A DNA stretch of 33,953 bases from a virus. The position numbers and the translations under genes are program-made. The first letter of the stretch is position 1. Every line of letters begins with the position of its first letter. The notes under the pieces are model-generated. The model saw only the letters and a list, made by a program, of their open reading frames with translations, had not been told where the DNA came from and ran no database searches. Of this stretch, positions 973 through 16,079 are shown piece by piece. The stretch is from positions 1 to 33,953 of IMG/VR virus record IMGVR_UViG_3300023116_007080. One strand, 5' to 3'.

Positions 973-2071
973 TGTTTTTCATTTTACAATAAGGAACAAA
1001 CTCTGCACAGATGTCATTTTTCAATAAACCCATGGACACCTTAGGTTCGTGTGGTGGATTGAACTGATCATCTTCTGATGCGTGTGAAAGATATGCTTCT
1101 CTCATAAGAGTACTCATTGCCACTGGTGCGTCCCATGATGTGCCTCGGCAATGTTGCCATTGCTTTTTAGAGGCAGAATGTATTCCTTGTGCATTCCTTC
1201 CACATATATCGATCAGTGCCGATAGAATTTTATCTATCCAATCTTTGGGTAGAAATTTAGTTGCACCGTCTTCTTTTGCTAATGCGTACATTTTTACAAG
1301 TCCTATGTAGATACCTTGATTGATTTCTCCTCCGTCCTCATCTCCGTAATATTGTTTGATTCCCAACAATATCTTTTCAAGAACATCAGCATCGCCGGTC
1401 ATTTCTAAACCTTTGTATGCATAATCAAAATGTGAGAAATAGTGTTTGTTTGGACCACACTTGCCCGGGCTCTTTCTCACTCGCTTGGGTTCTAAATCTA
1501 TAGCACATTTTTTGAATAGGGTATCAACAGTGTAGGCATTTTTTACCCTAGGATTATTCCTATCGTTTTCAGAATGGACATCGTTGTGCCATCTGTGTAA
1601 TAGACCCCTGTGTATCTCTTCTGTGCCTGCCCTCAATATACCTGTATCATTCAATATCTCAAATGCGATGGCATCAAAAGATTGATGTGATGTCTCAACA
1701 TAGGTCATGGGCACTGCCTTGAAACCCAATACCGATAATGCGACAGACGTGTGTTGTCCATCAAACAAAAAGTATTTTCCGTCTCTTTTGACTGCCGATG
1801 CGGGTCTTACCACCCGGGGATCAAATTTTTCACATATACGAACCACGTGTGAAGGTCTCAAGTCTCGTTGTACAGAATAATTGAAACATAGATCGTCATT
1901 GATCTCCACTTGTGAAATACCTTGCGGTAATATCATTTCAGGATCTTTTTGTAATTCTTTCAGCCTATCTCTGGCTGTTTCTAATCTTGTTTTGAAATTG
2001 GCTACTTCGTCTTCGCCGTCTTTGTAGAATTCCTCAACCACTTGATTGAGAGTTTTCACTTTGTTTTCCAT
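965..2071 (-). CDS. ParB/sulfiredoxin-fold (ParB-like nuclease domain) protein
   Basis: The protein has 368 residues counted from the chosen start. Residues about 50-130 look like a ParB-like N-terminal domain: a first beta strand with Q68-R69, then FLFDGQHTSVAL (residues 101-112), where GQHT replaces the usual GxHR/GERR phosphate-binding turn. The C-terminal two thirds are unassigned. ParB-fold domains bind or hydrolyse nucleotides and occur in phage nucleases, DndB-like proteins and regulators, so the exact role is unknown. An in-frame ATG lies upstream at 2095, but the ATG at 2071 has AGGAG 5 nt upstream, so I chose it. It follows a long structured leader (2072-2189) and a TTGACA-type promoter, and heads an operon with the next two genes. 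Confidence 0.6.
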   Translation of the reverse strand: MENKVKTLNQVVEEFYKDGEDEVANFKTRLETARDRLKELQKDPEMILPQGISQVEINDDLCFNYSVQRDLRPSHVVRICEKFDPRVVRPASAVKRDGKYFLFDGQHTSVALSVLGFKAVPMTYVETSHQSFDAIAFEILNDTGILRAGTEEIHRGLLHRWHNDVHSENDRNNPRVKNAYTVDTLFKKCAIDLEPKRVRKSPGKCGPNKHYFSHFDYAYKGLEMTGDADVLEKILLGIKQYYGDEDGGEINQGIYIGLVKMYALAKEDGATKFLPKDWIDKILSALIDICGRNAQGIHSASKKQWQHCRGTSWDAPVAMSTLMREAYLSHASEDDQFNPPHEPKVSMGLLKNDICAEFVPYCKMKNNV

Positions 2072-2098
2072 ATCATCTCCTGTATGTTGACTCAATTA

Positions 2099-2155
2099 CA
2101 CCCAAAGGGTGCGGAGTCGTGTGTTCCGCCGAATATAAGCGAGATCCGACGGAAC
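2099..2155 (-). promoter_or_regulatory. Two hairpins in the 5' leader of the ParB-like gene
   Basis: On the minus strand the leader first forms a 9-bp stem (GTTCCGTCG with CGGCGGAAC, one G-U pair, 15-nt loop; 2123-2155). It then forms a 5-bp stem CACCC/GGGTG with an AAA loop (2099-2111). They sit between the promoter at 2196-2223 and the SD of the gene at 2071, so a leader of roughly 118 nt is predicted. A regulatory role is inferred. It matches no riboswitch I know. Confidence 0.5.
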
Positions 2156-2195
2156 AAGTTTATAGACATTTACTTTAATATGTCTTGTTAATTTA

Positions 2196-2223
2196 ATTTT
2201 AACACATTATCAAAATATGTCAA
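2196..2223 (-). promoter_or_regulatory. Sigma70-like promoter for the ParB-like operon
   Basis: On the minus strand TTGACA (2223-2218) is followed after 16 bp by TAAAAT (2201-2196). Transcription should begin near 2189 and read the structured leader into the ParB-like gene, the HNH-like gene and the ligase. Confidence 0.6.
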
Positions 2224-2233
2224 CCGTCTGTTT

Positions 2234-2533
2234 TTAAACAACAATATTACTTTTTGGTGGTGTTTTGATAGGTGAAGTTGCATTCTTGTACTCGTTGATC
2301 ACTTTTTCATTGGCCAATCCAATTACCACAATATTCCTAGTTTCTATTTCTATATCTTTTGATTGATCCATTGTGGGCACAAATGTACCAAAAGCCAGTC
2401 CCTGTGGGCTCATCATGATTACCAAAGGTTTCTGTATGGTGATTTTATTTTGATCGTGATCAGTTACTTTGGCAATGACTTCTTCCCCAGTGACCAATTT
2501 TATAGTTGCTATTTTTTCTTTTTCTATTATCAT
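2234..2533 (-). CDS. Small conserved phage protein, possible Sm-like barrel
   Basis: The protein has 99 residues. Its N-terminus (IATIKLVTGEEVIAKV, then NKITIQKPLVI) has the alternating pattern of a strongly bent small beta barrel, as in Sm/Hfq-like folds: 'level of X: gene product with a G-E/D turn'. The C-terminal 25 residues are polar and probably disordered. The fold is inferred from pattern only, and the function is unknown. The start is the ATG at 2533. There is no SD; the promoter -10 box ends 6 nt upstream, so the mRNA is expected to be leaderless. It is divergent from the PP-loop gene at 2595. Confidence 0.6.
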   Translation of the reverse strand: MIIEKEKIATIKLVTGEEVIAKVTDHDQNKITIQKPLVIMMSPQGLAFGTFVPTMDQSKDIEIETRNIVVIGLANEKVINEYKNATSPIKTPPKSNIVV

Positions 2534-2539
2534 TGTTCT

Positions 2540-2568
2540 ATTGTATATGACAAATATTTTTTTGTCAA
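2540..2568 (-). promoter_or_regulatory. Sigma70-like promoter giving a leaderless mRNA
   Basis: On the minus strand TTGACA (2568-2563), a 17-bp spacer and TACAAT (2545-2540) lie so that exactly 6 nt separate the -10 box from the ATG at 2533. The expected first transcribed base is therefore at or next to the A of the start codon. Confidence 0.65.
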
Positions 2569-2579
2569 ATGAACTGCTA

Positions 2580-2587
2580 TATAAATA
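2580..2587 (+). promoter_or_regulatory. T4-type late promoter box
   Basis: The sequence is an exact TATAAATA, the T4 late promoter consensus, 7 nt before the ATG at 2595. In T4 the start of transcription lies about 6 nt after this box, so this mRNA too would begin almost at the ATG. The 8-mer is common by chance in AT-rich DNA, so its position is the evidence. Confidence 0.5.
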
Positions 2588-2594
2588 TTGAAAA

Positions 2595-4067
2595 ATGAAA
2601 ACCTATACTCCCACCGATCAGAACACAAAAGACTTATTAAAAAATTGGACAAGGAAAAATGGCCAGCTCTGGGAGATATTTTTAAAATATGGTCCAGACA
2701 ATACCATCACTGCAAAAACACTTGAACAAATAGAGCAAGATACAAATACCACTGTCAAGACTAAAGGTAGAGTAAATTTTCAATGTTATCCGTTCATTGA
2801 AAAACACAACATCAAAGAAACAATATTCCATGGGTGGGAATCTAGCACATTTTATCAAAATTTTCAATTGAACAGTGAGGGGTTGATTGAAGTTAGAGAC
2901 CTACCTCGAAACACGATACCATACGAAGAATTTGAGAAATTTGCAGTAGAAAAACTTGATAAAAAAATAAAAGACTTTATCGATTCGCATGATGACATAG
3001 TTTTAATGTACAGCCAAGGCATAGACTCGATACTATTAATGGCTTATTTGCACAAATACAACGCTCTAGGTAAAACAGAACTCGTATATGTGAATAATCA
3101 GGAGCCTGACTATGAACCAATAATAGTCGATGGAGAAATATTTTTGCCTTTGTGGAATAAAAATCCTTACGCCGAGACATATTGGAAAGACCGTCTTAGC
3201 AATCCACCTTTAGAATACAAAAATCATCATGAGAATAAGCATAATCCCAATAAGTCACACGTTCTCAGTGAAGGTGCAATTCTGAAATTTGACAACAACC
3301 TTGACCTGAGTTTCGAAAAAACACTTGGTTTTAAGAAAATCACCGAATTAAAAATGAACGAGGACACGCTGATCAAATGGGCGAACAATAGAGATCCAGA
3401 ACCATTTTTTAATTATCAATCTTATGAGGTCGCCGAACATTTCAAAGATAGACCTGTAATAATCGGCCACGAAGGGAATTCTGTTTTATTTCATAAATGG
3501 GAATGGGTCAGACGTATCGGAAAACGCATACCTATCGATGAAAATTATTATACAAAAACTGTAAACGGCATAGATTGGGATTTGGAATGGGACAACGACT
3601 GGGGAATCATAACACTTTTTCAACCAAAACAAAGAGGGTATGATAATAAAGACATAGGCAACGAATTCACTCCAATTTCTGATTTTGAATTGATGTCAAT
3701 GTTGCCTTTTATTGACACAGAAACTATAGATCCTTTAGATGTAGCGAACGCAACAATGATTAAAAAAATGATACATCAAATGGTTGGAGATAAATTTGAT
3801 CACTTGATAGTCAAAGAAGGTAACAATTGGATGAATTTTTGGACTCTGGCAAGGATACCCGTTTCAAAACTTGATCCTGAAAATTTAAATTTATATGTGA
3901 ATAAAAAAAGCAACCTTCATAATGTATCTTTTTGTAAGAAAGCATTACAGGTGGCAAAAAGAACGGGTTGGATATTTGCATCAGATCTACTACAAATGAA
4001 ATTCACAAACAAAGTGACCTTGCTATATGCAGATAACTTTCCTACTGCTGTTGTAAAAATAAATTAA
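2595..4067 (+). CDS. PP-loop ATPase / asparagine-synthase-like protein (copy 1)
   Basis: This 490-residue protein carries a PP-loop for ATP pyrophosphate binding at residues 138-145 (MYSQGIDS), after a strand (DDIVL) and before a helix, as in N-type ATP pyrophosphatases. The usual SGGxDS has Gln in place of the first Gly, while the key Ser, Gly and Asp are kept. It lacks the N-terminal Cys glutaminase domain of true asparagine synthase. The family adenylates a carboxyl, carbonyl or tRNA base and then swaps in ammonia or sulfur; the substrate here is unknown. It stands alone on the plus strand, with an upstream T4-late-like box and no SD. Its 3' end overlaps the convergent gene at 4064 by 4 bp. 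Two further PP-loop genes lie at 8339 and 9937. Confidence 0.7.
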   Translation: MKTYTPTDQNTKDLLKNWTRKNGQLWEIFLKYGPDNTITAKTLEQIEQDTNTTVKTKGRVNFQCYPFIEKHNIKETIFHGWESSTFYQNFQLNSEGLIEVRDLPRNTIPYEEFEKFAVEKLDKKIKDFIDSHDDIVLMYSQGIDSILLMAYLHKYNALGKTELVYVNNQEPDYEPIIVDGEIFLPLWNKNPYAETYWKDRLSNPPLEYKNHHENKHNPNKSHVLSEGAILKFDNNLDLSFEKTLGFKKITELKMNEDTLIKWANNRDPEPFFNYQSYEVAEHFKDRPVIIGHEGNSVLFHKWEWVRRIGKRIPIDENYYTKTVNGIDWDLEWDNDWGIITLFQPKQRGYDNKDIGNEFTPISDFELMSMLPFIDTETIDPLDVANATMIKKMIHQMVGDKFDHLIVKEGNNWMNFWTLARIPVSKLDPENLNLYVNKKSNLHNVSFCKKALQVAKRTGWIFASDLLQMKFTNKVTLLYADNFPTAVVKIN

Positions 4068-4354
4068 AATTTATATTTTCCGTGTTTGAAAACGTCGTCC
4101 ACTAATTTTTGACATTCGTCATGCCAGTACTGTCCGCTTTCTCTCAATTGCTCGTTCATTGTTCGTAGTCTTTCCATTTTCTTTTTCAATGTTTTTAATT
4201 GAGCGGGAGATATTATTTTTTCCAGTTCTTTGATTTTGGTTATCTTGTCGATCACATCATCAATGACCGGGCAGGTTATGTCAGGAACTTTGGGAGCCTT
4301 TTTCCTTATTTTCATCCAAACCTGTTTGTGCTTTGGTAGTCTACGTTTTTTCAT
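4064..4354 (-). CDS. Small basic coiled-coil protein
   Basis: The 96-residue protein is rich in Lys and Arg at the N-terminus (MKKRRLPKHKQ) and then has a probable coiled coil from about residue 38 to 75, with Leu/Ile/Met at heptad spacing. I do not recognise it. A basic start plus coiled coil would suit a nucleic-acid-binding or scaffold role, but nothing shows this. The start ATG at 4354 is preceded by GGGGTG at a suitable distance. It converges on the PP-loop gene, sharing 4 bp. Confidence 0.55.
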   Translation of the reverse strand: MKKRRLPKHKQVWMKIRKKAPKVPDITCPVIDDVIDKITKIKELEKIISPAQLKTLKKKMERLRTMNEQLRESGQYWHDECQKLVDDVFKHGKYKF

Positions 4355-4435
4355 TCACACCCCTGTTTAATATCAAATATTTAAGGTTAGGATGACAAAT
4401 GAATATACGACATTATAAGTTATACGATCGTATTA

Positions 4436-4741
4436 TGTTGGGGGAACTTCTGTTCCCAGGTGTCCCCAAACCCGCAAGATTGTTGGCTATTAAGCCGCTA
4501 ATCTTAGTTGAGATTGACCAACTGTTAGGTCAGCAAATCCCAATGCTTTTTTATTAGCATTTATAAAATAACCCGATTACGTCGGAATAATCACGATGAA
4601 CTCCAGATAGTTTTAACTGTCAATCGATCCTAGTTCACCCCCTCAAAGCACAAATCTATTGTGTGTGTTTCAAGTGAGTGGTGGAGGTGGTCGGTACTGC
4701 CCCGACGTCTTGTCCAGGTATTGTCTACCCATCAACGTCCA
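4436..4741 (-). ncRNA. ssrA: Circularly permuted two-piece tmRNA
   Basis: On the minus strand the acceptor piece comes first (about 4741 to 4679) and ends in CCA. It is followed by an internal spacer (4678-4643) and then the coding piece (4642 to about 4436). The acceptor stem is 7 bp (4642-4636 GGGGGTG with 4689-4683 CACCTCC), and its third pair is G-U, the alanine identity element of tmRNA. A T-arm of 5 bp (GTCGG/CCGAC, 4706-4690) with a 7-nt loop abuts it. GGATCGA follows in the D-like region. The tag frame runs 4558-4490. This permuted order is known from alphaproteobacteria and marine picocyanobacteria. The mature piece ends are estimates. The RNA would rescue stalled ribosomes and tag nascent peptides. 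Confidence 0.9.
4490..4558 (-). other. tmRNA proteolysis-tag reading frame
   Basis: The resume codon is read as GCT at 4558. The tag is 22 codons, begins ANKKALG, ends LRLAA, and stops with TAA followed at once by TAG. The LAA end matches the ClpXP degron of bacterial tags. The length is above the usual 10-15 residues. A resume point a few codons later (GCA at 4546) cannot be excluded. Confidence 0.75.
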
Positions 4742-4747
4742 TGCTAG

Positions 4748-4777
4748 TATTTAAACACATTAATGGTATTTTGTCAA
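4748..4777 (-). promoter_or_regulatory. Sigma70-like promoter of the tmRNA
   Basis: On the minus strand TTGACA (4777-4772), an 18-bp spacer and TAAATA (4753-4748) place the transcription start near 4741, at the 5' end of the acceptor piece. It stands back to back with the promoter at 4782-4810, with only 4 bp between the two -35 boxes. Confidence 0.65.
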
Positions 4778-4781
4778 TAGG

Positions 4782-4810
4782 TTGACACTTGTTTTTTTGG
4801 ATGTTAATAT
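4782..4810 (+). promoter_or_regulatory. Sigma70-like promoter giving a leaderless mRNA
   Basis: TTGACA (4782-4787), a 17-bp spacer and TAATAT (4805-4810) are followed after exactly 6 nt by the ATG at 4817. Transcription should therefore start at the initiation codon. Confidence 0.7.
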
Positions 4811-5132: not shown

Positions 5133-5162
5133 TTGACAGAACGCCCTTCCGTATGGTATAAT
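5133..5162 (+). promoter_or_regulatory. Sigma70 promoter of the ABC transporter operon
   Basis: TTGACA (5133-5138) and a perfect TATAAT (5157-5162) are spaced by 18 bp, and TGG just before the -10 box makes it an extended -10. Transcription should start near 5169. This is among the best host-type promoters of the window. Confidence 0.8.
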
Positions 5163-5165
5163 AAA

Positions 5166-5192
5166 CCTAGTAGTTAAACTTAAAACTAGGAG
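5166..5192 (+). promoter_or_regulatory. SD site inside a small inverted repeat
   Basis: The SD AGGAG (5188-5192) ends 8 nt before the ATG at 5201. Its first bases form part of ACTAGG (5185-5190), which can pair with CCTAGT (5166-5171). A transcript starting near 5169 lacks part of the left arm, whereas one from the late box at 5058 would carry it. The stem is short, so any effect is uncertain. Confidence 0.35.
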
Positions 5193-5200
5193 AATATTAT

Positions 5201-6136
5201 ATGAAGAAAATGATTCTGACGTTGTTGATATCTATCATAACAACAACAATATCGGCCAAGGAATTTACAATGGCCATTCAACCCACCTTTGGTGCTCATC
5301 AGCATATAGGATATGAAATAATCGAGAGATTAGAAGCACGAGGCATAACAGTAAACACAGTACCAACAAAATCATCCATCAAAGGCAATTCCTTACTGAT
5401 GAATAAACAGATAGATGTCAACGTGGGGTCTATCACATCGTTCATTGTTTTAAATGATAAGATGCCTGAGCAAAGTTTGTTGCTATCTGCCATTGGGCAT
5501 TACAAGTATTTCTTACAATGTACACCTGACATCAAAACAATGGAAGATGTTAAAACTACAAAAATTGTCACTTCTGGTAGAAACACCTTGGAACATCACA
5601 CAATCAGGTGGTTGGCAAAAGAACACTTTGGAGACCCTTATGCACTTGATGAAAATTTTATTACCATGAAAAGACCTCAAATATGGCAAATATTGCAGGC
5701 CGGATCTTCTGACGTGAAATGCGTGATGACCGGAGCACCATTACAGAACAAGATACAGGACGAACTGGGTTTTGTTACAGTTGCCACAAGTGATGTTGAA
5801 AAAGGTATAGCAGGATCATACAATGCCTATTGGACAAGGAAAGATTGGGTTGATCAGAATCCCGATTTGGCTTATGCTTTCATAACAACAGCGGTAGAAG
5901 TTATACGTGATTACAACAAGGATCCTATAACAATTTTAGAAAAATTTATTCAGAAAGACAAAATGGACACAACTGCGGAGTATCTACAAAAGGGACACAT
6001 AAAAAATCAAGCAATATTCCATTCCGATCTAAGGGGATCAGAGTATTTTAATAATTTTTTATACGAAATAGAATATCTCAAAGATAACAAAGGCGACATA
6101 TCAAAAATGATCTATCGTGCAGAGGCGTTGAAATAA
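5201..6136 (+). CDS. ABC importer periplasmic substrate-binding protein (NMT1/TauA-like)
   Basis: The 311-residue protein starts with a clear signal peptide: two Lys, a hydrophobic stretch of about 15 residues, and ISA before the likely cleavage after residue 19. The mature part follows the NMT1/THI5-like or TauA/SsuA binding-protein plan, with an early strand (FTMAIQPTFGAHQHIGYEII), a DVNVGS segment near residue 73, and the hinge region after residue 110. Such proteins capture taurine, sulfonates, nitrate or the thiamine pyrimidine HMP in the periplasm; the ligand cannot be told here. It heads an operon with ATPase and permease genes, and its stop shares one base with the next start (TAATG). 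A full binding-protein importer is very unusual in a lytic phage. Confidence 0.75.
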   Translation: MKKMILTLLISIITTTISAKEFTMAIQPTFGAHQHIGYEIIERLEARGITVNTVPTKSSIKGNSLLMNKQIDVNVGSITSFIVLNDKMPEQSLLLSAIGHYKYFLQCTPDIKTMEDVKTTKIVTSGRNTLEHHTIRWLAKEHFGDPYALDENFITMKRPQIWQILQAGSSDVKCVMTGAPLQNKIQDELGFVTVATSDVEKGIAGSYNAYWTRKDWVDQNPDLAYAFITTAVEVIRDYNKDPITILEKFIQKDKMDTTAEYLQKGHIKNQAIFHSDLRGSEYFNNFLYEIEYLKDNKGDISKMIYRAEALK

Positions 6137-6687
6137 TGCAATTGATTTCTGTTGCTCCTCTCAGAAACGATGTAGAGTTATTTAGACCTATAACTCTACA
6201 TCTACGACCTGGCGAAGTAAACACATTGATGGGAGCATCGGGTATTGGAAAAACTAGTCTTCTCGAATGTATCTCCGGAGGTTGTGAATACACAGGAAAG
6301 ATCATAGACAATTCAAATATTTTCAGGGTATTTCAAGATACAGAACAACTATTTCCTTGGATGACCGTGAGGGAAAATTTAAGACTGGTTACAGATATAA
6401 ATTGGAACAAGATTGCTAAAAAATTAAAATTAGAAAAACATTTGGATAAAATGCCCAACGAGTGTTCAGTTGGTCAGAAACAACGGTTTACTCTGATGAG
6501 AGCTCTATATAGTGATAGATCAATATTGTTATGTGACGAACCCATGAGCGGTGTTGATGGTGCCACAGGAAAAGAAATAGTGAGAGAATTTAAAAAATTA
6601 GTTAAAAGCACAAACAAAAAAGTTTTATGGGTTACACACAATCAAACAGAAGCCAAACAATTAGGAAAAGTTATCAAAGTAAAATGA
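6136..6687 (+). CDS. ABC transporter ATPase subunit (compact)
   Basis: All nucleotide-binding motifs are present in 183 residues: Walker A GASGIGKT (33-40), Q-loop Q67, signature SVGQK (111-115, in place of LSGGQ), Walker B ILLCDE (130-135) and H-loop H168. The usual length for TauB/SsuB/ThiZ-type subunits is about 240-260, so the protein lacks the C-terminal extension and some of the helical domain, yet looks functional. It energises import through the permease encoded next. The start overlaps the preceding stop by one base and its stop overlaps the permease ATG (ATGA), so coupling is tight. Confidence 0.85.
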   Translation: MQLISVAPLRNDVELFRPITLHLRPGEVNTLMGASGIGKTSLLECISGGCEYTGKIIDNSNIFRVFQDTEQLFPWMTVRENLRLVTDINWNKIAKKLKLEKHLDKMPNECSVGQKQRFTLMRALYSDRSILLCDEPMSGVDGATGKEIVREFKKLVKSTNKKVLWVTHNQTEAKQLGKVIKVK

Positions 6688-7412
6688 ATAGTATAAAAAG
6701 TTTTGTAATTATTTTAATAGTTTGGCAATTACTATCAATGTCTATAGGTAACAATTATATTTTACCAGGCATCGATACATTGATAGTCGAATATCCTCAA
6801 TTACTAACTGATATAAGATTTATAGGTGCCTTAACAGACAGTATTTTATTCCTAATTAAAACTTGGTTTTTGATATTGAGTCTATTGTTTGTTGTGATTA
6901 TAATATCTGTTTTAAATAAACAATTTAGATTTATCTTCAAGAGCCTTTGTGCATCTTTACAACCCACACCAACTTTTGCATGGTTGCCGGTCTTCATGCT
7001 CGTGTTTGGAGTGAATGAATTAACAATAATTTTATTAATGATCTTTGCTACCGTTTGGATGGTGGGATTAAACATGATCGTTTCCTTGGAGGAATCTCTG
7101 ACAAAATGGTCTAAACACTGTGGCAATCTAAGATTGGGAGTAATAGAAAGTATAATAAAAGTTTATCTTCCTAGTTTAAAACCTTTATTGGTTGCTAATT
7201 TCAAAACGTGTTGGAATTTGAGTTGGAGGATATTGATAGGTATAGAAGTTGTGTTTGGCACTATAGGCAGTCATTGGGGTATAGGCACTTACATGACAGA
7301 TGCCAAAGACATAATGGAAACATCTACCATGTATGCTGTCTTTTTCATTATTATATTAATAGGTATTGTTGTAAACGAGTTATTTGATAAAATTCTAAAG
7401 GAGAAAAATTAA
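6684..7412 (+). CDS. ABC transporter permease (TauC/SsuC/ThiX-like)
   Basis: The 242-residue protein has about six hydrophobic segments and an EAA-like loop near residues 140-170 (HCGNLRLGVIESIIKVYLP), with the conserved G and the LP that docks onto the ATPase. This is the BPD_transp_1 family in the inner membrane. I chose the ATG at 6684, which overlaps the ATPase stop (ATGA). An upstream in-frame start would lie inside the ATPase gene and add an unlikely polar tail. With the two genes before it, this makes a complete type I importer. The gene is followed after one base by the oxygenase gene. Confidence 0.85.
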   Translation: MNSIKSFVIILIVWQLLSMSIGNNYILPGIDTLIVEYPQLLTDIRFIGALTDSILFLIKTWFLILSLLFVVIIISVLNKQFRFIFKSLCASLQPTPTFAWLPVFMLVFGVNELTIILLMIFATVWMVGLNMIVSLEESLTKWSKHCGNLRLGVIESIIKVYLPSLKPLLVANFKTCWNLSWRILIGIEVVFGTIGSHWGIGTYMTDAKDIMETSTMYAVFFIIILIGIVVNELFDKILKEKN

Positions 7413-9936: not shown

Positions 9937-10854
9937 CTATATTCCTTTCGACAACAGATCAATTAATTTTTCTGTTGTTCCTAAATAATAACTTTTTGTT
10001 GTGCCCACGTGTCTTATCAGTGTTGTAAAATTTTTGTATTTTTTTGAATCAATGATTCTTCTGTCCATGGGTAGAGCGATCTTTGGTCTGGGAGAGCAAT
10101 TAAATATCTTGAACCTATTTTCTTCTGTTGTCATTCTTGGATCTCTTGCGGCTATGTAACTCAAGGTCACTTCCGGATTCCAATTTAAAACAGTCATTGG
10201 ATGTTTGCCATCGGCAATCAATAATTTTACAAGATCTGCTTCACTTTGTAGGTATCCGTGTTTCATATTTCCCTCGCTGTCTTTTAGTGTGGCATCGTAT
10301 TCCTCTTCGTACATGATAGGATCGGGTATGTACAATTCATTGAACCCCATCCCCGTCAATAATATCCCATCGCGATCATTCACATAATCCAACACAAATT
10401 TCACAGTGACAGAACCTGCTGTCATTATGCTACAATATTTTTTCGAATGAGCAATCAGATTATCAATATATTGATCCTCGTTGATGTTGATCACGTGAGG
10501 TTCGATGTTGTTTTGTTTGCACCAACGAAATGCCCACCAGGTATCTAACGAGTTCTCTTTGTTGAGAGTTACCACTATTGGTGTGAATTTAATTTTTTGT
10601 TTGACCAATATGTCCGCAACATACTCGCTATCTATTCCCCCACTCATGGCAAGATAGATTTTTTTATTGTAAGTTTCGTGTATGTCTGATACTGCGTTTC
10701 TTGTGGCGACATCTATAGGAACAATTTTATTGGTTCCTTGAGGTCTTAAAAAACATTCAAAATCATTGCTTGGATATGGATTTTCATAACTTCTGTTCCA
10801 TTTATATTTTATCCAATTATCTTTACCGTATCCTGGCAGAGAATCATAATCCAT
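9937..10854 (-). CDS. PP-loop ATPase / asparagine-synthase-like protein (copy 3)
   Basis: The 305-residue protein has SGGIDS at residues 71-76 after the strand KKIYLAM, followed by a helix and the strand FTPIVVTL. Later, GILLTGMGFNELY resembles the second conserved region of asparagine-synthase-like C-terminal domains, which have a 'G.GADE.F'-type motif, so this copy is closest to that family. No glutaminase domain is present, so ammonia or another nucleophile must come from elsewhere. Its start overlaps the Rieske gene by 11 nt, so oxygenase and ATPase are co-translated. I infer that they act on the same substrate. Confidence 0.72.
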   Translation of the reverse strand: MDYDSLPGYGKDNWIKYKWNRSYENPYPSNDFECFLRPQGTNKIVPIDVATRNAVSDIHETYNKKIYLAMSGGIDSEYVADILVKQKIKFTPIVVTLNKENSLDTWWAFRWCKQNNIEPHVININEDQYIDNLIAHSKKYCSIMTAGSVTVKFVLDYVNDRDGILLTGMGFNELYIPDPIMYEEEYDATLKDSEGNMKHGYLQSEADLVKLLIADGKHPMTVLNWNPEVTLSYIAARDPRMTTEENRFKIFNCSPRPKIALPMDRRIIDSKKYKNFTTLIRHVGTTKSYYLGTTEKLIDLLSKGI

Positions 10855-11722
10855 TATTTCGTAACCAATTTATGTAATGTGTTTTTTGTTTTTCCAAAAA
10901 TTTAGATTGAAAGTGAGGTACGACCGATTCGGATTGTGTTTTATCTTGGCTCCAGGCAGTTTCCCATATGTGACAGTTCAACTCCCAATTCTTTTCGGAA
11001 TATCTTGTGTCTCTGTATTTGTAAACAGTCACATTGGTTTCTTTATCGTTGATTGGGTTACAAACGGTGTTGAACCAAGCACCAGGAAAGTATTCCATCA
11101 TTGTGTATGGATACACACAGAACCAAGCGGCACCGTGTTTCCTTTCTCGATCTTCTTGTAGCATTGTCTGTCCAAAATCATTATCTAATTTTTCTTTGTT
11201 GTTGGGAGCATACTGCACTGACGAATTTTCTAAAATCTCCCATTCAACTTCTTCCACAGATAGTTGATCATATATTTTTGGATGAACTACTGGAAGATGA
11301 TCCATGTCTAAAAAAATATTAACAATATCAATATAATTTGCCTTCACATTATCTACACGCATTTCTTCCAACACAAGATGATCGCTCTTGATATAATCTA
11401 TTGTGGGCAAGTCGTGTTTTTCAGAAAACAAATAGCCATTCCATTCAAAAACTTCTTTATTTTCTAAATTCTCTTCATTCTTACACCAATGTGAAGTGCT
11501 ACCGGAACCAACAGGTTCTCCTTTGCTTGTGAATGACCAACCATGATATGGACATAGTCTGGTATTTTGTCCTTGTGTTCCTTTAAAATAAGAACCCTGA
11601 TGTGGACAGATATTGCTGTAAAGAGTGTACAGGTCTTTGTTTTTATTTAATGACCAATCTTTTAAATGTGGTAAAACTTTCCACGAATTATTTTCCAAAT
11701 CGTTTTTGTGTCCGAGCAACAT
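10844..11722 (-). CDS. Rieske non-heme iron oxygenase
   Basis: The Rieske [2Fe-2S] motif is complete: C39-P-H41, 15 residues, then C57-x2-H60 in CPYHGW. The mononuclear iron site is seen at H142-x4-H147 (DMDHLPVVH), with an acidic residue near 260 (SQDKTQSE) as the likely third ligand. At 292 residues it is shorter than typical ring-hydroxylating alpha subunits (about 350-450) but has both domains. No reductase or ferredoxin is encoded nearby, so host electron carriers would be needed. The substrate is unknown; ring hydroxylation, demethylation or CMP-sugar/choline oxidation are family reactions. It is first in an operon with a PP-loop ATPase. Confidence 0.8.
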   Translation of the reverse strand: MLLGHKNDLENNSWKVLPHLKDWSLNKNKDLYTLYSNICPHQGSYFKGTQGQNTRLCPYHGWSFTSKGEPVGSGSTSHWCKNEENLENKEVFEWNGYLFSEKHDLPTIDYIKSDHLVLEEMRVDNVKANYIDIVNIFLDMDHLPVVHPKIYDQLSVEEVEWEILENSSVQYAPNNKEKLDNDFGQTMLQEDRERKHGAAWFCVYPYTMMEYFPGAWFNTVCNPINDKETNVTVYKYRDTRYSEKNWELNCHIWETAWSQDKTQSESVVPHFQSKFLEKQKTHYINWLRNNGL

Positions 11723-13289: not shown

Positions 13290-14096
13290 TTAATGTTTAA
13301 TGATAGAGTCGATGTCGTGTAATTTACGTAACAACGGTTCTAGATCTTTCAAATTTAAGTTATTGGGACCATCTGAATATGCCTGATCGGGATTGTCATG
13401 AACTTCCATGAAGATCGAAGCAACACCAACGGCAACACCTGCCTGTGCGATCACCGGAATGTGTTCTCTATTTCCTCCGGATGTTGTTCCTTGTCCTCCC
13501 GGTTGTTGACAAGAGTGTGTGGCATCTAGACACACAGGGTATCCTGTCTTCTTCATTTCGTATAAAGATCGCATATCAGTGACCAGTGTGTTGTATCCAA
13601 AAGACACTCCACGTTCACATAACATTATTTTATTGTTGCCCGTGGATGCTATTTTTTCTGCCGAATGCTTGATGTCCCATGGTGCCATGAATTGTCCTTT
13701 CTTAAGGTTGATCCATTTGTTTGTTCTGCCAGCCGCTAATAACAGATCAGTCTGTCTGGAAAGGAACGCAGGTATCTGTAACATATCTACAACTTCTGCG
13801 ACAGGACCACACTGCTCGGCCGTGTGTATGTCTGTTACCACAGACACATCAAATTCTTTTTTTAATTTTTCAAATATCTTTAGTCCTTCTTCAAGTCCCA
13901 CACCTCGCTTACCTTGTAGAGAAGTACGATTGGCCTTATCAAAAGATGATTTATATATAAAGTTCCAGTTATTTTTGTCACAAATACTTTTAATGGATTC
14001 ACACATTCTAAATGCATGGCTCTCTGATTCTATTTGGCAAGGTCCTAACACAGCAAATAATTTTTTATCGTTGCCTAGCATTGAGTCTATATTCAT
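13290..14096 (-). CDS. kdsA: 3-deoxy-D-manno-octulosonate 8-phosphate synthase
   Basis: The 268 residues match KdsA along the full length: GPCQIES near 18-24, KSSFDKANRTS near 49-59, VVTDIHT, and LCERGVSFGYN. The enzyme joins phosphoenolpyruvate and arabinose 5-phosphate to give KDO-8-phosphate for lipopolysaccharide. The length is slightly below the usual 275-285 residues and no key part is missing. The C20 in GPC and later His/Glu/Asp residues fit the metal-dependent type. It overlaps the nucleotide-sugar dehydrogenase by one base (TAATG), so the two are co-translated and probably both serve surface-sugar synthesis during infection. Confidence 0.88.
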   Translation of the reverse strand: MNIDSMLGNDKKLFAVLGPCQIESESHAFRMCESIKSICDKNNWNFIYKSSFDKANRTSLQGKRGVGLEEGLKIFEKLKKEFDVSVVTDIHTAEQCGPVAEVVDMLQIPAFLSRQTDLLLAAGRTNKWINLKKGQFMAPWDIKHSAEKIASTGNNKIMLCERGVSFGYNTLVTDMRSLYEMKKTGYPVCLDATHSCQQPGGQGTTSGGNREHIPVIAQAGVAVGVASIFMEVHDNPDQAYSDGPNNLNLKDLEPLLRKLHDIDSIIKH

Positions 14097-15286: not shown

Positions 15287-15685
15287 TCATAGACCTAAAA
15301 GATCTCTCATTCCGGGTTCTATCATTTCTCTGCTCCATTGTGGAGTCATTGTGATCCTCACTTTGCATCTCAATCCGGGTATGCTCTCAATCTTTTGTTG
15401 TATCTCTCTGGGCATGGAATCAGCGGCAGGACAGAATGCCGAGGTCAGACTCATTAACACAAACACATATCTGTCACTGGTAATTTTTACATCGTAGATC
15501 AATCCCAGTGTGTAAATATCCACAGTTATCTCTGGATCATACACAGTTTTTAATTTTTCTTTTACTATATCTATAAATTCTTGATGAACTTCTGTGTCTT
15601 CTTTTATATCTTCAAGTGTTACGTGTAGGCTAGGATCCACTGATGCATTGTCTTGAGGAATCCAGCCTGGGGGTGTGCTATGCAT
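15287..15685 (-). CDS. SufT/PaaD-like (DUF59, MIP18 family) Fe-S maturation protein
   Basis: The 132-residue protein holds a DUF59 domain from about residue 35: VYDPEITVDIYTLGLIYDV, then LTSAFCPAAD with the conserved Cys85, and later MTPQW. Members help to mature or deliver Fe-S clusters. The first 34 residues are an extra Pro-rich stretch. The start overlaps the sufE end by 8 nt, so SufE and this protein are made together. That pairing is known from bacterial suf loci, from which the phage probably took it. Confidence 0.8.
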   Translation of the reverse strand: MHSTPPGWIPQDNASVDPSLHVTLEDIKEDTEVHQEFIDIVKEKLKTVYDPEITVDIYTLGLIYDVKITSDRYVFVLMSLTSAFCPAADSMPREIQQKIESIPGLRCKVRITMTPQWSREMIEPGMRDLLGL

Positions 15686-16079
15686 TGGCGATCCTTATAA
15701 TTCTTAAAATTAATTCGCCCAATCCGTTTTGTCTTTGAAGTGTTAACAATTCTTTGATTCCTAGTTCTGTAAAATTTTCTACTGTCAAGTTTGCAACTTC
15801 GCTACGATGAGCTCCGTTTACTATGTCCGTGACAACTTTAGCAGTTCCTTTAGTAATAAAGGCATCACCATCAACTCTGTATTGCATTTTATTTTCTGCA
15901 TCTGCACCGCCTACTATCCACAACTTACTGGCACAACCGTGTATTCTATTTTCTTCTGTTTTAACGGCGTCTGGTAACGGCTCTACTTCTTTTGCTTTGT
16001 CAACAAGATATTGTAGACGATCGTGACCTTCTAACATTTTTAGATCATTACCAAATTCTTTTATTTTTTCTAGTATCAT
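15678..16079 (-). CDS. sufE: SufE-like sulfur-transfer protein
   Basis: The 133-residue protein matches SufE in length and motifs: the sulfur-accepting Cys49 in HGCASKLW, and the C-terminal helix with LTLQRQNGLGELILRI. SufE takes persulfide sulfur from the cysteine desulfurase SufS and stimulates it; the phage carries no SufS, so it must work with the host enzyme. A leaderless promoter lies upstream (-10 box 6 nt before the ATG) and no SD is seen. It leads an operon with the DUF59 gene and two small genes. Possible clients are host enzymes or the phage Rieske protein; the class Ia reductase nearby uses di-iron, not Fe-S. Confidence 0.85.
   Translation of the reverse strand: MILEKIKEFGNDLKMLEGHDRLQYLVDKAKEVEPLPDAVKTEENRIHGCASKLWIVGGADAENKMQYRVDGDAFITKGTAKVVTDIVNGAHRSEVANLTVENFTELGIKELLTLQRQNGLGELILRIIRIANA

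Follow-up and report, generated by a model that had tools for sequence, protein, structure and literature searches.

A phage-encoded permuted tmRNA with a long, conserved peptide tag

The window, a 33,953-nt stretch of the IMG/VR record IMGVR_UViG_3300023116_007080 whose positions serve as coordinates here, contains one complete permuted tmRNA gene. ARAGORN called it at 4399-4774 of the minus strand and read its tag as ANKKALGFADLTVGQSQLRLAA, followed by two stops. In a cmscan of the window, RF01849 (alpha_tmRNA) matched at 4439-4797 with 112.1 bits (E 5e-30, gathering threshold 50) and RF04321 (tmRNA_permuted) at 4525-4741 with 93.4 bits (E 4.8e-17, gathering threshold 47). An earlier note on this DNA had proposed a permuted, alphaproteobacterial-type, phage-encoded tmRNA with a 22-residue tag at 4436-4741 and suggested a covariance-model check. 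With both models far above their gathering scores, the proposal is borne out by ARAGORN and Rfam, and the proposed coordinates agree with the limits of both.

The gene order is that of the permuted type, with the acceptor piece encoded ahead of the coding piece. The acceptor piece (4679-4741, minus strand, as are all parts of the gene) consists of inter-piece helix strands, the T stem-loop, the acceptor 3' strand and ACCA, and was defined by the RF01849 and RF04321 alignments, base-by-base pairing and covariation. Direct reading of the sequence places the T stem-loop GTCGG-GGCAGTA-CCGAC at 4690-4706, the acceptor 3' strand CACCTCC at 4683-4689 and the encoded ACCA at 4679-4682. The 36 nt that separate the encoded CCA from the acceptor 5' strand (4643-4678) form an intervening segment which, by analogy with known permuted tmRNAs, would be cut out during maturation. 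The coding piece starts with the acceptor 5' strand GGGGGTG (4636-4642), placed by model alignment, pairing and covariation. Together with CACCTCC it forms a 7-bp stem whose third pair is the G-U of alanine identity. The piece order, the stem with its G-U pair, the T-arm and the CCA had all been claimed before, and all were read in the sequence.

The tag frame (4487-4558) begins with GCT at 4558, encodes ANKKALGFADLTVGQSQLRLAA and closes with TAA TAG at 4492-4487, and it shows a resume codon, a hydrophobic C-terminus and a stop. It is supported by ARAGORN, by relatives and by codon-level conservation; the ending LRLAA and the two stop codons, noted earlier, are the same in the ARAGORN call. 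The 3' part of the coding piece (4439-4486) ends in ...CACCTGGGAACAGAAGTTCCCCCA and is covered by the RF01849 match up to the last model position.

We aligned the tRNA-like domains of 23 viral genes with several tag types and obtained the structure with RNAalifold. It has 30 pairs in 5 helices, and at least one compensatory double change was found in 19 of the 30 pairs. On this structure 95% of the cells were paired, compared with 82% in shuffles and 37-45% when the partners were slid by 1-3 columns. Cells changed on both sides numbered 84, against a shuffled mean of 23. Inter-piece helices 1-3 had 16 pairs with changes on both sides, and all seven pairs of the acceptor stem were invariant, the G-U third pair included. 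The tmRNA structure is not due to chance.

The window is a fragment in which no capsid or terminase gene was identified; a cold-shock protein and an exonuclease gave PHROG matches. Its NrdA is T4-like/Kyanoviridae-like, with Pelagibacter phage Mosig as the best match (72% at the amino acid level) and many cyanophages at 70-71%. Adjacent SufE-type and iron-sulfur assembly (PF01883) genes lie next to the ribonucleotide reductase at 15287-16079. Genes for a Rieske-domain protein and a DAHP-synthetase-I family (KdsA-like) enzyme are found at 10844-11722 and 13290-14096. At 5133-7412 are genes for an ABC transporter (an NMT1-like binding protein, an ATPase and a permease), directly preceded by a TTGACA-18-TATAAT promoter.

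A pattern scan of IMG/VR gave 46 stretches with a similar tmRNA motif, and a scan with a stricter T-arm pattern gave 84. Many of the viral tags were ordinary, such as ADENLALAA and the 14-residue ANDNFA..LAA types; 24- and 30-residue forms also occurred. The window belongs to a group that we call type A, with 22 or 25 residues of the form AN(K/T)(K/R)ALGFADLTV-linker-LRLAA. An unrelated type B has 23 residues, A(N/K)AFKPEVTVP-..FAD.ELVAA. By comparison, the commonest tmRNA tag length is 10 residues (tmRNA database paper). A type B variant with an unusual degron C-terminus, LVAV in place of LVAA, was found in seven genes that had no ARAGORN call (L005, L006, L018, L020, L031, L043 and L045). 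The 30-residue viral tag ANDNALDNVSFVNFGTQKDVRLNEDFALAA (L016 and L042) resembles an ordinary tag with an insertion.

The 22 type A coding DNAs specify 20 peptides, and their lengths differ by three codons, only within the linker that follows the core. In core codons 5-13 we counted at least nine synonymous changes and one nonsynonymous change, while linker codons 14-17 had at least four synonymous and at least ten nonsynonymous changes. Taking 0.28 as the fraction of changes that are synonymous under neutrality, we obtain P ~9e-5 for the core, an approximate value, as it comes from a minimum-change count without a tree or transition bias. The pN/pS ratio was 0.28 for type A and 0.26 for type B. 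Judged from these codons, the inner core ALGFADLTV is under protein-level purifying selection while the linker varies, and the type B core (AFKPEVTVP) is conserved at the protein level in the same way. Since the core changes synonymously and the length changes fall only after it, the core is held as protein, apart from the C-terminal degron. This implies that it acts beyond the LRLAA end signal, which itself should act as a ClpXP-type degron.

The same contrast bears on a simpler explanation, in which the tmRNA only boosts rescue during infection, its end is an ordinary degron, and the long conserved form reflects recent ancestry or RNA constraints. Other marine phage tmRNAs carry ordinary tags of 9-14 residues (ADENLALAA, ANDNFASEELRLAA and the GEDNFALAA of Mosig). 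Some bacteria also have long tags, up to 30 residues, and tags of 21-30 residues were present in some of the host alphaproteobacteria that we sampled. However, the synonymous sites of the core change while its residues stay, and the adjoining linker changes freely, which neither recent ancestry nor RNA structure predicts. We therefore consider this explanation possible but rather unlikely.

Downstream of the tmRNA, at 4064-4354 on the minus strand, lies a gene for a 96-aa protein with a KKAPKVPDITCP..ID motif that is linked to the long-tag tmRNAs. The protein is predicted to be all-helical with moderate confidence (mean pLDDT 77), and it had no meaningful match in Pfam, PHROG or PDB. Relatives of the gene occurred in 80 viral loci, and a tmRNA was present in 67 of the 77 tested. 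Most of these tmRNAs immediately preceded the gene on its own strand, and some type A loci had the two on opposite strands. We also looked at loci picked by the tmRNA pattern, and thus independently of the 96-aa gene. Those of type A or B with enough flanking sequence had the gene in 45 of 46 cases; of the loci whose tags were of another type or unread, 0 of 42 had it. One locus (L271, 2477-2931) has a relative of the gene and no tmRNA in the stretch; it has a tRNA and a glutamine riboswitch instead, an arrangement that echoes a published remark that these phages use one or the other.

It is conceivable, albeit a long shot, that the tag core (ALGFADLTV or AFKPEVTVP) serves these phages as an address of their own, sending tagged proteins to a chosen partner and so turning host quality control to the phage's ends. 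The partner would perhaps be the helical protein encoded next door. The linkage of gene and long tag fits such an address; it fits shared ancestry too, and common phage descent may explain it.

Upstream of the tmRNA we found a sigma-70-type promoter on the minus strand. Its -35 element TTGACA is at 4772-4777, and its -10 element TTTAAA (in the context TGTTTAAATAC) is at 4750-4755, 60 nt upstream of the acceptor strand. The TGTTTAAATAC context, or TATAAA/TATAAT, recurs upstream of the tmRNAs of relatives. We scored non-redundant genes for a TTGACA-16/17-TATAAT-like promoter with at least 10 of 12 matches and no more than 140 nt upstream. Such a promoter preceded 43 of 55 viral representatives but only 1 of 78 host genes; when the viral upstream regions were shuffled, about 5% had one. 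In nearly all promoter-bearing viral genes the -10 element ended 55-62 nt before the acceptor strand. Since single-site matches are common in the AT-rich window (37 found versus 23 expected by shuffling), the support for the promoter comes from this fixed position across relatives. That the promoter is of the sigma-70 type and keeps a fixed distance suggests that the tmRNA is expressed early. We had suspected a T4-type late promoter (TATAAATA) ahead of the viral tmRNAs but rejected it as the main reading: in most of them the -10 element in question is preceded, at 16-17 nt, by a TTGACA box, as in an early sigma-70 promoter.

The near-consensus promoter makes high early expression plausible, as would suit a decoy, an RNA that occupies SmpB and stalled ribosomes and damps host trans-translation while its tag is secondary. 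A precedent is the tag-less tmRNA of mycobacteriophage DS6A, which is reported to inhibit the endogenous tmRNA in E. coli (cited in PMC11915505). But a decoy needs no tag, and here the frame is open, has two stops and keeps both core and end at the protein level. A decoy or inhibitor is thus improbable.

The likely host order would be a SAR11-like one of small-genome Alphaproteobacteria. Host tags in this order have 9 residues, mostly ANDELALAA or ANNKLALAA, and the comparison with host tags suggested in the earlier note showed that the 22-residue tag of the window is not host-identical. Since the tag is unusually well conserved in uncultured relatives and unlike those of likely hosts, it is probably the tag as such that is important for the virus. 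All 20 genomes of the SAR11-like order that were searched for SmpB had it; none was found in the 12 viral records searched, most of which are fragments. No SspB was found in the same number of genomes of this order (20), so SspB is an unlikely reader of the tag core if this order is the host. In SAR11-like genomes the tmRNA 3' end (GGCACCTGGCAACAGAACGCCCC, the last 23-29 nt) recurs beyond the intact gene in near-perfect direct repeats, spaced 0.2-1.6 kb apart on its downstream side, as if a series of small elements had inserted in succession at this end. Four extra copies of this repeat were seen in L383 at 1032-4320 (G497:C7:18031-21320), and L385 has two repeated tmRNA segments too.

In a tree of the tRNA-like part the viruses were apart from the hosts and the window was on a long branch between them, in an alignment too short for firm placement. 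Searches of phage-collection DNA and proteins with the tmRNA gene, the tags and the neighbour protein gave nothing usable, the short tag queries having little power. As the same gene occurs in dozens of uncultured viral contigs and the host tags differ, the tmRNA is, on this comparison, phage DNA. A stray piece of host DNA or a pseudogene would agree with the match to a host-type Rfam model, but this explanation is refuted, to the point of being practically negligible, by near-identical loci in two other viral contigs (L223/L328 and L224/L362), by related copies in dozens more, by helices that are all intact with compensatory changes, and by a tag unlike those of hosts.

For the locus observed here, with its gene, fold, viral location, promoter and conserved tag, the likely reading is a working phage-encoded permuted tmRNA that writes its own 22-residue tag with host machinery. 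The earlier note proposed that such an RNA could replace or compete with the host tmRNA and that its long tag may lead to a different choice of protease. We infer its course as follows. Host RNA polymerase would probably transcribe the gene early from the sigma-70 promoter, and host tRNA-processing enzymes would cut the precursor into acceptor and coding pieces, which the acceptor stem and inter-piece helices would hold together. Host alanyl-tRNA synthetase would charge the RNA via the G-U pair, and host SmpB would bring it to stalled ribosomes. The products of these ribosomes would then receive the phage tag, whose LRLAA end would lead to ClpXP-type degradation by the borrowed host protease.

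Phage-borne tmRNA is a known but uncommon trait, and its tag has mostly been discussed as a generic degron. Our results bear on why phages carry a tmRNA. Two unrelated long tags of uncultured marine phages, each conserved inside at the protein level and each encoded next to the same small protein, suggest that a phage may choose its tag for a purpose. The promoter, the tag family and the neighbour gene also give a sequence handle for tracking these phages in metatranscriptomes.

Among 133 unique phage tmRNA structures, 53 are of the two-piece form, and marine or aquatic phages account for 50 of these; the form was reported in Methylophilales phage Melnitz and Pelagibacter phage Mosig (PMC9004378; Mosig record MT647606, in which SsrA is annotated). 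The two-piece phage tmRNA is therefore already known. We found no report of conserved long tags in phage tmRNAs in the open-access literature; new, as far as we found, is the conserved long-tag family of 22-25 residues. Like Melnitz and Mosig, which are marine T4-like phages, the window has a permuted alphaproteobacterial-type tmRNA for which early expression is expected, and our promoter reading is in line with Melnitz, for which an early promoter was inferred (PMC9004378). However, the Mosig tag has 9 residues and that of the window 22. Melnitz and Mosig have a glutamine riboswitch, whereas none reached the threshold in the cmscan of the window. The gene downstream of the Mosig tmRNA encodes a late-promoter accessory protein, whereas that of the window encodes a small helical protein without visible similarity.

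The window tmRNA shares its gene order, acceptor stem, T-arm, CCA and inter-piece helices with the host RF01849 tmRNAs, but scores 112 bits with this model compared with 212-244 for nearly all intact copies of the SAR11-like order. The RF01849-type genes of that order differ by their 9-residue tags, and the host genes, with one exception in 78, have no phage-type promoter at that distance. The DS6A tmRNA, as cited in PMC11915505, is also phage-encoded but has no tag frame, whereas the tmRNA of the window carries a long and conserved tag.
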